Origin: an uncultured Thermodesulfobacterium sp.
Lineage (GTDB): Bacteria > Desulfobacterota > Thermodesulfobacteria > Thermodesulfobacteriales > Thermodesulfobacteriaceae
Reading direction: 5' to 3'
DNA: 64,000 bases
Assembly (NCBI GenBank): GCA_938091335.1
Contig: CALLJG010000007.1
Span: forward strand, 1-64,000
Shown here: one piece after another, positions 42,604-46,909 of the stretch
Layout of the letters: the number at the start of each line of letters is the position of its first letter
Position numbering within the stretch: position 1 is the first letter of the stretch
Position numbers and translations under genes: made by a program
Notes under the pieces: model-generated
The model's database searches: none
Told to the model about the DNA's origin: nothing
Seen by the model: the letters and a program-made list of their open reading frames with translations, nothing else

Positions 42604-42894
42604 ATGGATAAAGAAGAAAAGCTTGCAGTGGCATTACAATATAAAATAAAAGATCCGGCTCCAAAAGTCATTGCTAAAGGTAGAGGATATTTAGCAGAAC
42701 TTATTTTAAGGATAGCCAAAAATCATAATATCCCTATAAAAAAAGATTCAAAAATAGTAAAAAAACTATACAAACTGGAAATAGATCATCCCATCCCTCC
42801 TGAGTTATACAAGGCTGTTGCTGTGATATTAGTATGGGCTTATAATGTTAATCAAAAATTTAAAGAAAAAATTTTAAAAAATTTCTCTTTTTAG
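42604..42894 (+). CDS. Stand-alone FlhB/EscU C-terminal-domain-like protein (FlhX type)
   Basis: AVALQYKIKDPAPKVIAKGRGYLAELILRIAKNHNIPI...IPPELYKAVAVILVWAY; no NPTH. Confidence 0.85.
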   Translation: MDKEEKLAVALQYKIKDPAPKVIAKGRGYLAELILRIAKNHNIPIKKDSKIVKKLYKLEIDHPIPPELYKAVAVILVWAYNVNQKFKEKILKNFSF

Positions 42895-42954
42895 GTCTTG
42901 CTATTTTTTAAAAACTGGATATAAAACACTAAAATATTTGAAGGAGGTTTATAA

Positions 42955-43383
42955 ATGTTTAAATTCCCTGAAGATAGGCTATATTCTGAAACTCATCTAT
43001 GGGTAAAGAAAAGAAAAAAGAAAATAGTTAGAATAGGGGTTACAGATTATTTTAATATGAAAAATTGGGAAATTGTGGAAATTGACCTTCCAGAAGAGGA
43101 AGAAGAATTTGAAAAAGATGAAATTTTCGGAAGTATCGAAACTGTTGAAGAGGTGTTTGATTTGATTATGCCTGTCTCAGGGAAAATTATTGCAGTAAAT
43201 GAAAAGGTTTTAGAAGAAACAGATATTTTAAAAGAAGATCCATATGAAGAAGGATGGCTTGTAGAAGTTGAACTTTTAAATTCTTCTGAATTAGAAGAAC
43301 TTTTACCTCCAGAAGATTATGAAATGAAGTTTTTGGAAGAAGCAGAAGAAATCCCTGAAGAAAAAATTATAGAAGAAGAATAA
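42955..43383 (+). CDS. Glycine cleavage H-protein-like protein lacking the lipoylation lysine
   Basis: ETHLWV...VGVTDY-like, FGSIETVEEVFDLIMPVSGKIIAVNE...EDPYEEGWLVEVEL; expected ESVKA is ETVEE. Confidence 0.88.
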   Translation: MFKFPEDRLYSETHLWVKKRKKKIVRIGVTDYFNMKNWEIVEIDLPEEEEEFEKDEIFGSIETVEEVFDLIMPVSGKIIAVNEKVLEETDILKEDPYEEGWLVEVELLNSSELEELLPPEDYEMKFLEEAEEIPEEKIIEEE

Positions 43384-43385
43384 TA

Positions 43386-44315
43386 ATGGAAACATTTGCT
43401 ATAGTTTTCCCTGGTCAAGGTTCTCAATATATAGGAATGGGAAGAGATTTTTTTGAAAATTCTATAAAAATTAAAGAGCTTTTTAATAAGGCAGAAGAGC
43501 TCACAAATATTCCCATTAAAAAACTTTGTTTTGAAGGTCCTTTAGAAGAACTTACATTAACTAAAAATTTACAAGTATGCCTAACTTTAGTAAATATTGC
43601 TTGTTATGAAGTTTTAAAAGAAGTTTTAAAAGAAAAAAACTTAATTCCCTCTTATGTAGCTGGTCATAGTTTAGGAGAATTTAGTGCTCTTTATGGATCA
43701 GAAGTTCTTTCTTTTGAAGATACTATTATTGCTGTAAAAGAAAGGGGGAAATTAATGGGAGAAGAAGCAGGACCTTCTACTATGTATGCCATAATAGGTT
43801 TACCTTTAGAGATTGTTCAAAATTTATTAAGTAACCAAAAAGAGGTGGTAATTTCTAATTATAATTCTCCAAAGCAATTTGTAATAAGTGGAAAAATTCC
43901 AAAAGTAGATGAAATAGCACAAGAGGCTAAAGAATTAGGAGCAAAAGTTGTAAGGCTTAAAGTAAGTGCAGGTTTTCATAGTCCTTTTATGAAATCTATA
44001 GAGGAAAAATTTAGTCAAATTCTTGAAAATCTTACTTGGAAAAATGCCAAAATTCCCTTTGTAAGTAATATAAGTGGAAAAGAAGAAATGGAAGGATCTA
44101 TTATAAAAGAACTTATGAAAAAACAAATTGTTTCTTCTGTTAGATGGATTGAATGCATTAATTATATGTATAATAAGGGGGTAAAAACTTTTATAGAAGT
44201 TGGTCCCAAAAGAGTACTTTTTGGCCTAATTTCTCAAATTTTAGAAGGAAAAAAATATAAAATATATAACATAGAAAACTCTGAAACCTTAGAAAATTTC
44301 ATAAAGAGTTTTTAA
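43386..44315 (+). CDS. fabD: Malonyl-CoA:ACP transacylase
   Basis: FPGQGSQYIGMGRD; GHSLGEFSAL; AGFHSPFM. Confidence 0.95.
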   Translation: METFAIVFPGQGSQYIGMGRDFFENSIKIKELFNKAEELTNIPIKKLCFEGPLEELTLTKNLQVCLTLVNIACYEVLKEVLKEKNLIPSYVAGHSLGEFSALYGSEVLSFEDTIIAVKERGKLMGEEAGPSTMYAIIGLPLEIVQNLLSNQKEVVISNYNSPKQFVISGKIPKVDEIAQEAKELGAKVVRLKVSAGFHSPFMKSIEEKFSQILENLTWKNAKIPFVSNISGKEEMEGSIIKELMKKQIVSSVRWIECINYMYNKGVKTFIEVGPKRVLFGLISQILEGKKYKIYNIENSETLENFIKSF

Positions 44316-44327
44316 GGAGGAAAAAGA

Positions 44328-44543
44328 ATTTTCCAAATAAAAATTTTGGAAGAAAGATGTAAAGCATGTGGTCTTTGTATTCATTTTTGTCCTAAAAAAG
44401 TATTGGATCTTTCTAACAAAAGAAATAAACAAGGATATAAAGTAATATATCCTAAGTACCCAGAAAGATGTAACATTTGTGGTATTTGTTATTTAATGTG
44501 TCCTGATGTAGTGTTTATAATGGATAAAAAAGATGAAAGCTAA
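44328..44543 (+). CDS. korD: 2x[4Fe-4S] ferredoxin subunit of 2-oxoacid:ferredoxin oxidoreductase (KorD-like), probable ATT start
   Basis: CKACGLCIHFCPK and CNICGICYLMCPD; AGGAGG at 44315-44320, 7 nt before ATT at 44328; ORF track begins at TTG 44346. Confidence 0.85.
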   Translation: MFQIKILEERCKACGLCIHFCPKKVLDLSNKRNKQGYKVIYPKYPERCNICGICYLMCPDVVFIMDKKDES

Positions 44544-45594
44544 AAAAATTTTGGTTAAAGGGGTAGAAGCTATTGCTCTTGGTGCATTAGAAGCAAATTG
44601 TAAGTGCTATTTTGGATATCCTATTACTCCACAAAATGAAATACCTGAAATGATGGCAAGAGAGTTGCCAAAAAGGGGTGGAGTTTTTTTACAAGCTGAA
44701 AGTGAACTTTCTGCAATAAATATGGTATTAGGAGCTTGTGCAGTAGGGGTAAGGGCAATGACTAGTTCCTCAAGTCCTGGCATTTCTCTTATGTGTGAAA
44801 GCTTTTCTTATATTGCGGCTTTAGAATTACCTGCGGTAGTAGTAAATGTAATGAGGGGAGGACCAGGACTTGGAGGGATAGAAGCTTCTCAAGGAGATTA
44901 TTTTCAAGCGGTAAAAAGTCCAGGACATGGAGATTTTCACTTTATGGTATTAGCCCCCTATAATGCTCAAGAAGCCTATGAACTTACTGCTAAAGCATTT
45001 GAATTAGCAGAAAAATATAGAAACCCTGTAATGATTTTATCTGATGCTATTTTAGGACAAATGAAAGAACCTATAATTTTGAAAAATCTTAAGATTAAAG
45101 AATATCCTAAGAATGATTGGGCATTAACAGGAGCTAAAAATAGACCAAGTAGAATAATTAGAAGCCTTTTTCTAGACTCTCAAGAATTAAAAAAACGAAA
45201 TTTAAAGTTAAAAAACAAATATAAAAAAATGGAAAAGGAAATACTTTTTGAGGTATCAGTAGAAAATAATGAAAAAGCAATTTTAGTTGCCTTTGGCTCA
45301 ATGGCACGTATTGTAAAGGAAGTTTACTTTATTTTAAAAAATAAAGGATATCCTGTTGGATTTTTTAGACCCATCACTCTTTTCCCTTTTCCTGTAAAAC
45401 CTATTCAGAAGATTTTACATAATGCTAAAAATCCCTTAAAATTTTTGGTTATTGAACTTAATTGTGGCCAAATGGTAGAAGATGTAAAATTAGCTGTAAA
45501 TGGAAAGGCTGAAGTTATTTCTTTATTCTATCCTCCAAGTGTAATCCCTTTTCCGGAAGAATTAGAAAGGAAAATCAAAAAATGGATAAAATAG
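44533..45594 (+). CDS. korA: 2-oxoacid:ferredoxin oxidoreductase alpha subunit
   Basis: GYPITPQNEIPEMMARELPKRGGVFLQAESELSAINMVLGA. Confidence 0.92.
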   Translation: MKAKKILVKGVEAIALGALEANCKCYFGYPITPQNEIPEMMARELPKRGGVFLQAESELSAINMVLGACAVGVRAMTSSSSPGISLMCESFSYIAALELPAVVVNVMRGGPGLGGIEASQGDYFQAVKSPGHGDFHFMVLAPYNAQEAYELTAKAFELAEKYRNPVMILSDAILGQMKEPIILKNLKIKEYPKNDWALTGAKNRPSRIIRSLFLDSQELKKRNLKLKNKYKKMEKEILFEVSVENNEKAILVAFGSMARIVKEVYFILKNKGYPVGFFRPITLFPFPVKPIQKILHNAKNPLKFLVIELNCGQMVEDVKLAVNGKAEVISLFYPPSVIPFPEELERKIKKWIK

Positions 45595-46346
45595 CTTTTA
45601 AATTTCCTAAAAGCTTAAAATCTACACTTTTTCACTATTGTCCAGGATGCCATCATAGTATTGTACACAGACTACTTTGTGAAGTAATAGATGAACTGGA
45701 AATACAAGAAAAAAGTGTAGGGATTGCCTCAATTGGATGTGCCTGTTTTCTATATTTTTATATAGATGTGGATATTTTAGAAGCTCCTCATGGAAGAGCC
45801 TGTGCTGCAGCTACAGGTATTAAAAGAGCTAAGCCAGAATTAATAGTTTTTACCTATCAAGGGGATGGAGATTTTGCAGCTATTGGATTTAATGAAAGTT
45901 TTCATTCTGCCTTAAGAGGTGAAAAAATAACAGCTATTATGATTAACAATACACTTTATGGAATGACTGGAGGTCAGGTATCTCCAACTACTGTTCCTTA
46001 TCAAAAAACCACCACTACTCCTGAAGGCAAAAATCCTGCTTATTATGGCTATCCACCTAAAATAGCAGAAATTTTTTCTAATTTAGAAGGAGTTGCCTTT
46101 TCTGGTAGATTTGCAGTAAATACTCCTAAAAGAGTTTTAGAAACTAAAAGAGCTCTTAAAAAGGCCTTTCTTGCTCAAATTTATAATTTGGGATTTGGAT
46201 ATATAGAAATATTATCTTCCTGTCCTGTAAACTGGAAACTTGATCCTATAAAAGCTAATAAAAAGATAGATGAACTCATTAATTTTTATACTTTAGGTGT
46301 TTTCAAAGACAAAGTAGAAAATTTTTTAAAAAAAGAAAAAAATTGA
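45582..46346 (+). CDS. korB: 2-oxoacid:ferredoxin oxidoreductase beta subunit (TPP)
   Basis: YCPGCHHSIVHRLL; GDGDFAAIGFNESFHSALRGEKITAIMINNTLYGMTGGQ. Confidence 0.93.
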   Translation: MDKIAFKFPKSLKSTLFHYCPGCHHSIVHRLLCEVIDELEIQEKSVGIASIGCACFLYFYIDVDILEAPHGRACAAATGIKRAKPELIVFTYQGDGDFAAIGFNESFHSALRGEKITAIMINNTLYGMTGGQVSPTTVPYQKTTTTPEGKNPAYYGYPPKIAEIFSNLEGVAFSGRFAVNTPKRVLETKRALKKAFLAQIYNLGFGYIEILSSCPVNWKLDPIKANKKIDELINFYTLGVFKDKVENFLKKEKN

Positions 46347-46909
46347 GAATAGAACTAATAATTTCTGGATTTGGAGGACAAGGGATTCTTTTTGCAGGTA
46401 ATCTTATTGCTCTTTCTGCTATGAAAGAAGGACATCAAGTTACTTACCTTCCTGTTTATGGACCAGAAATGAGAGGAGGAACTTGTAATTGTACCATTAT
46501 TATATCCCAAAATGAAATTGCCTCTCCTTTGGTTTACCATCCATCTTTCTTAATAATTATGAATTATCCATCTTTTTTAAAATTTATGCCTAATCTTAAA
46601 AAAGGAGGATCCAGTATAATAAATTCTGATTTGGTGAAACCAGAAGAAATCAAAAACCTTCAAATTTTACAAAAGAAATATAAATTATATTTTGTTCCTG
46701 TAAATTCTTTAGCTGAAACTATAAATGCTCCTATGTTAGCAAATCTGTGTGCATTAGGGGCATTTTATCAAATAACTAAAATATTTAATCTAAAAAATTT
46801 CAAAGAAGCCTTAAAAGAAACCTTGGGAAGCGAAAGGTCTCATCTTTTTGAACCCAATTTAAAAGCATTTAATCTAGGAGCAAAATATATTAATCAAAAT
46901 TTTAAATGA
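46343..46909 (+). CDS. korC: 2-oxoacid:ferredoxin oxidoreductase gamma subunit
   Basis: SGFGGQGILFAGNLIALSAM...YGPEMRGGTCNCTIIIS. Confidence 0.93.
   Translation: MRIELIISGFGGQGILFAGNLIALSAMKEGHQVTYLPVYGPEMRGGTCNCTIIISQNEIASPLVYHPSFLIIMNYPSFLKFMPNLKKGGSSIINSDLVKPEEIKNLQILQKKYKLYFVPVNSLAETINAPMLANLCALGAFYQITKIFNLKNFKEALKETLGSERSHLFEPNLKAFNLGAKYINQNFK

Follow-up and report, generated by a model that had tools for sequence, protein, structure and literature searches.

The open reading frame at positions 42955–43383 (+) of the window, the whole 64,000-nt stretch of DNA analyzed here, encodes a 142-residue protein in which the GcvH fold is intact and the lipoyl-lysine is replaced by glutamate. A GcvH-like protein without this lysine cannot be a lipoyl carrier. 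Sequence comparison assigns it to a single, old, lysine-less GcvH subfamily of the Desulfobacterota-type phylum. The gene is conserved under strong selection throughout an order of heat-loving bacteria that lacks lipoate enzymes, where it directly precedes the only fabD gene, and the protein therefore probably has a different, cofactor-free job. The best overall explanation, to which we give an even chance, is an old lysine-less subfamily acting as an armless acidic binding module, with FabD as its candidate partner.

The coding sequence was defined by translation, Pfam, AlphaFold modeling, and orthologue alignment, and its ATG lies 6 bases 3′ of a Shine–Dalgarno sequence, AAGGAGGT (42941–42948, +). 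A stand-alone FlhB C-terminal domain (PF01312 positions 261–334) is encoded just 5′ of the gene, at window positions 42604–42894. The preliminary description, made from the DNA letters, had proposed an intact GcvH-like fold, a GAA codon in place of the lipoyl-lysine codon, and an acidic tail, and all three proposals were borne out. Pfam GCV_H (PF01597) matched residues 9–125 with an E-value of 8.5e-30, and the AlphaFold model (mean pLDDT 85) gave a target-normalised TM-score of ~0.9 to solved H-proteins, with identities of ~30–37% in most structure matches. Core residues are kept as in GcvH (H14, W16, G28, E62, P73, G76, N82, and W101), and the protein contains no cysteine. The β-hairpin that bears the lipoyl-lysine in H-proteins was assigned to codons 57–71 (43123–43167, +) from the model and from alignment to solved H-proteins; its modeled strands comprise residues 57–63 and 67–71, and the motif FGSIETVEEVFDLIMPVSGK spans residues 58–77. 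In pairwise alignments, residue 65 (GAA, 43147–43149, +) falls on the lipoyl-lysine of the pea and Thermotoga H-proteins. The published lipoyl motif of GcvH is Ex2Kx10G (quoted in PMC4518038), and its counterpart in the window protein reads E62-x2-E65-x10-G76, with glutamate at the lysine position. An acidic C-terminal extension, delimited by alignment and by the model, comprises residues 124–142 (43324–43380, +), of which the last nine are disordered (pLDDT <50).

Orthologues were sought in 60 relatives and by one GTDB-wide pattern scan. The gene is present in 40 of 41 Thermodesulfobacteriales genomes, including named loci of Thermodesulfobacterium, Caldimicrobium, and Thermodesulfatator; the one exception is a genome (G040) that is 76% complete. 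Across these 40 genomes, the lipoyl site is occupied by E in 21, R in 10, Q in 7, and D and H in one each, and never by K. Because all 40 genomes agree on a residue other than lysine, Glu65 is not a read error, one of two circumstances that the preliminary description had named as counting against its reading. The other, lipoylation of a different lysine in the hairpin loop, also fell away: no position of the family alignment has an invariant lysine, and no lipoylation enzyme scored above cut-off.

Partner enzymes were sought in 39 genomes of the order for GcvP, LipA, LplA/LipB, and lipoylated 2-oxoacid dehydrogenase E2, and in 36 for GcvT; in each search, 10–12 of 14 control genomes scored above cut-off. 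Within these samples, LipA, LplA/LipB-type enzymes, and GcvP had no matches above cut-off (sub-threshold matches only for GcvP, for which two genomes outside the order were positive), and GcvT and lipoylated E2 were absent. As the order yielded no lipoyl synthase, ligase, or transferase that passed its cut-off, known enzymes could lipoylate no other lysine either, which widens the basis for the initial statement that lipoylation is impossible at residue 65. In the source genome, the only sub-threshold LplA-like match looks like a biotin ligase from its motifs. A check for a canonical gcvH and for gcvPT had been suggested, and neither was found there: the window protein is the sole GcvH, and the second GCV_H match is the biotinyl domain (ESMKME) of a carboxylase subunit. 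The source genome is 92% complete, and GcvP and GcvT are missing from complete relatives too. Thus, nothing known lipoylates the window protein, and there is no glycine cleavage system for it to serve; the absence of LipA, LplA/LipB, GcvP, GcvT, and lipoylated E2s indicates that it serves neither in glycine cleavage nor as a decoy for lipoate.

A wider survey, consisting of a profile search over 395 genomes of the phylum and a reading of ~40 loci, found further lysine-less members, whose site residue is S, M, V, R, D, L, N, G, F, or E. The subfamily extends to at least eight additional families of the phylum, and in some of these a lysine-bearing GcvH is present as well. No lipoate enzymes occur in f80, f50, f63, f9, f7, f14, or four of five f20 genomes, but f12 and f53 have them. 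Because f12 genomes hold both lysine-less and lysine-bearing copies, the lysine-less protein is a distinct paralogue. In a tree built without the loop columns (140 columns, with some long branches present), one branch separates 46 rows of the lysine-less clade from 53 others, with UFBoot/SH-aLRT support of 97/87 and recovery in 96% of bootstrap trees. One sequence inside the lysine-less clade has K at the site (L140, f80), and one within the lysine-bearing clade has T (L146). Since a single branch holds them, the lysine-less proteins appear to be one old subfamily rather than products of repeated decay; independent repeated losses within the clade were rejected, as the tree needs one change. 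A single clade of fabD-linked proteins was not recovered in the best tree, but a topology containing it was not rejected (p-AU 0.395).

A second tree omitted two further groups. One comprises GcvH-like proteins of Bdellovibrionota with Asp at the lipoyl site (ETDDG), which form a long separate branch and are another apparent lysine loss (L091:542-943, L102:5971-6369, L107, and L110–L112). The other, too divergent for inclusion, is a second lysine-less kind of GCV_H-domain protein of ~230–350 residues with the loop ‘ALxRQGHKA’; the site is Gly in all six that were aligned, and several genomes of the phylum encode these ‘RQGH’ proteins in tandem (L206, L212, L213, and L214; G046:C10:28329-31021; G118:C16 and C29; and G175:C21). 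A separate genome, G239 (97% complete), encodes a lysine-bearing GcvH (L138), yet neither LipA nor LplA/LipB was found in it.

The former lipoyl site is free to vary, and the remainder of the protein is under strong purifying selection. Ratios of dN/dS (YN00) for the GcvH-like gene were 0.05–0.16 in the 12 pairs listed; those for fabD were 0.11–0.13 in the three computable pairs. Several columns that are invariant or almost so in lysine-bearing GcvH vary here, namely 33 (A), 34 (Q), 37 (L), 41 (V), 63 (S), and 65 (K), and column 68 (S) is loosened to a lesser degree. By alignment, positions 15, 33, 37, and 65 correspond to pea Glu14, Ala31, Leu35, and Lys63, the first three of which presumably border the pocket in which the loaded lipoyl arm sits. 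Positions 48 (E), 50 (E/D), 51 (E), 115 (E/D), and 123 (E) are mostly acidic in the lysine-less proteins. Mean net charge was −34 for the lysine-less proteins versus −21, a comparison that is indicative only, as it includes Bdellovibrionota and fragments of differing length.

Two bases past the stop codon of the gcvH-like gene begins fabD (43386–44315, +), the only fabD of the genome, which by domain and motif evidence encodes malonyl-CoA:ACP transacylase with an intact GHSLGE motif. It is followed by genes for a korD-like 2x[4Fe-4S] ferredoxin with a TTG start (44346–44543, +), a korA-like alpha subunit of 2-oxoacid:ferredoxin oxidoreductase (44533–45594, +), a korB-like subunit with a TPP enzyme C domain (45582–46346, +), and a korC-like gamma subunit (46343–46909, +), as the preliminary description had said of the downstream genes. 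Its suggestion that GcvH paralogues be surveyed for linkage to fabD and kor gave a divided answer, very strong for fabD and inconstant for kor. In 39 of 40 genomes fabD lies directly 3′ of the gcvH-like gene, and in the remaining one the contig ends; fabD is single-copy wherever it was found in the order. The korDABC genes are 3′ of fabD in most Thermodesulfobacteriaceae and are missing beside the gene at L035, L037, L044, L114, and L120. The first two of these loci, from two Thermodesulfobacterium-type lineages, have a fabD–dtd interval without korDABC and an unchanged gcvH-like–fabD pair. Upstream neighbors in the order also change (the FlhB-like ORF, moaA, or others).

The gcvH-like gene is thus fixed directly upstream of the only fabD and is often translationally coupled to it. 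Several loci have a 4-base overlap of the TGATTG type between the two genes, and in many loci the terminal Glu codons of the gcvH-like gene (e.g. GAAGAGGAGGAA) double as the fabD Shine–Dalgarno sequence; at the window locus, the gap is 2 bases and the fabD Shine–Dalgarno sequence is weak. Because these final Glu codons form the Shine–Dalgarno sequence, the very end of the acidic tail is in part a feature of the nucleic acid, and the overlapping ribosome-binding site accounts for some of the tail. Outside the order, fabD adjoins the lysine-less gene in f20 (5/5, with korA), f80 (4/4), f50, and f63. The orthologues of f7, f12, f53, and f9 are not beside fabD; neighbors are lspA-lgt and a SIR2 gene in f12 and resB-ccsA in f53 and f9. 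At L135 (3977-5173), L139, and L141, a SIR2 (sirtuin) gene lies directly 3′ of the lysine-less gene, in a setting between ileS-lspA-lgt and tol genes that recalls, and does not match, SirTM/GcvH-L operons.

Several other explanations of these observations were weighed. A relic of an earlier glycine-cleavage H protein, in decay but retained by chance since the loss of lipoate metabolism, would account for the missing glycine-cleavage and lipoate genes and for the freely varying active-site column, but retention in 40 of 41 genomes at dN/dS ratios of 0.05–0.16 makes it highly improbable. Moreover, the f12 members of the clade come from genomes that retain lipoate enzymes and a lysine-bearing GcvH, and thus the lysine disappeared before the pathway did or independently of it. 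The ORF could instead serve mainly as a leader whose translation is coupled to that of fabD, with the protein itself of little import, as the stop/start overlaps and the Glu-codon tail might suggest; we consider this very improbable given the conservation of the whole fold and the low dN/dS, and orthologues without fabD downstream retain both fold and acidic tail. Neither a mere leader peptide nor a relic agrees with the constraint on the fold and the existence of members away from fabD. The lipoate-transfer decoy raised in the preliminary description, or a regulator of such transfer, draws on the role of GcvH as a lipoyl/octanoyl acceptor hub in other bacteria. With lipoyl ligase, transferase, and synthase absent from the order, it is scarcely credible, and for the source genome the missing machinery rules it out, barring some unknown ligase; a decoy role could still hold in f12 and f53, which have lipoate enzymes.

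Two rivals give the protein a partner or task other than FabD. It might be an accessory subunit of the adjacent 2-oxoacid:ferredoxin oxidoreductase (Kor/Vor), standing in for a lipoyl-bearing partner, in keeping with korDABC downstream of fabD in many Thermodesulfobacteriaceae and f20. Such enzymes work with ferredoxin and CoA and do not require a carrier, however, and kor is gone from the locus at the five loci named above and in f80/f50 whereas fabD stays, so that we judge this reading quite improbable. A less improbable, though still unlikely, alternative is a cofactor-free module with some general function in the cell envelope or in protein quality that has nothing to do with FabD, in which case the fabD linkage would be inherited gene order; the ileS-lspA-lgt, sirtuin-tolQRAB, and resB-ccsA contexts fit this view. 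Against it, at least five families keep the linkage to fabD although the genes on the upstream side shift (moaA, lspA-lgt, or others), making fabD the more constant neighbor.

As the most constant neighbor, FabD is the prime candidate for a partner of the lysine-less protein, a candidacy that rests on gene order and coupling, although gene order may reflect shared regulation only. FabD may not be the universal partner, as four families have orthologues away from fabD. The lysine-less GcvH-like protein is likely a small, acidic module that binds proteins and functions with no swinging arm, and the scaffold or regulator role put forward initially is favored. In fabD-linked lineages, its partner may be FabD or a complex that FabD visits, with the malonyl-loading step of fatty-acid synthesis tuned or organized, a reading we hold only tentatively. 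Beside lgt, the sirtuin gene, or resB-ccsA, the partner could differ, or the position could be uninformative. Recruitment of GcvH-fold proteins in the phylum ancestor as cofactor-free FabD accessory subunits, with a regulatory or channelling function unknown elsewhere, seems rather unlikely; if true, fatty-acid initiation in these bacteria would have a FabD subunit unknown elsewhere. The family offers a clean and testable example of a swinging-arm protein that became an armless binding module. A whole order lacking both lipoate and glycine cleavage retains the carrier shape minus the cofactor site, and selection on it matches that on fabD in strength.

GcvH is regarded as a lipoyl carrier, and automatic annotation labels it a subunit of the glycine cleavage system. 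The window protein resembles glycine-cleavage GcvH (PF01597, NF002270/TIGR00527) in fold, core residues, and length, but it lacks the lipoyl-lysine, its arm-site columns are altered, and its host lacks GcvP, GcvT, and lipoylation enzymes. The TIGR00527 equivalog model rejects it (95.3 versus a cut-off of 115.85 bits) and NF002270 accepts it by 2 bits (119 versus 117). Most relatives scanned also pass NF002270, and genome annotations therefore tend to misreport a glycine-cleavage component. An automatic ‘GcvH’ call of this kind leads to a wrong metabolic prediction when counted as evidence for glycine cleavage or lipoate. Scores for NF045810 (GcvH_rel_desulf; 42.3 bits, and ~38–52 for relatives scanned, versus a cut-off of 150) and TIGR03077 (not_gcvH; 56.8 versus 144.05 bits) were far lower. 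Chlamydial not_gcvH is a GcvH relative in organisms without GcvP/GcvT and sits with lplA, whereas the genome of the window organism has no ligase. Simiate/FAM206A (Abitram), which presumably lacks the lipoyl-lysine, is a precedent for a GcvH-derived protein in a non-metabolic role, differing in being eukaryotic and unlinked to fabD. This GCV_H-like protein has protist forms ~20% identical to GcvH (PMC3859600). Our literature searches found no paper joining GcvH with Thermodesulfobacterium and no title or abstract describing a lysine-less bacterial GcvH family. The LbpA lipoate-binding proteins of sulfur oxidisers keep the lysine, mostly have two cysteines, and have their own ligase (PMC6067878, PMC10332631); the window protein is likewise GcvH-like and outside the glycine cleavage system, but with neither the site lysine nor any cysteine it does not class with sHdr-associated LbpA. 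In GcvH-L of the SirTM operon (PDB 5a35), which has LplA2 and macrodomain partners, LplA2 lipoylates Lys56 and the protein acts through that lipoyl group (PMC4518038). This separates it from the window protein, with no site lysine and no ligase in its genome; the two are alike in being GcvH-like proteins with a role outside glycine cleavage, and the f12 relatives have a sirtuin gene next door.
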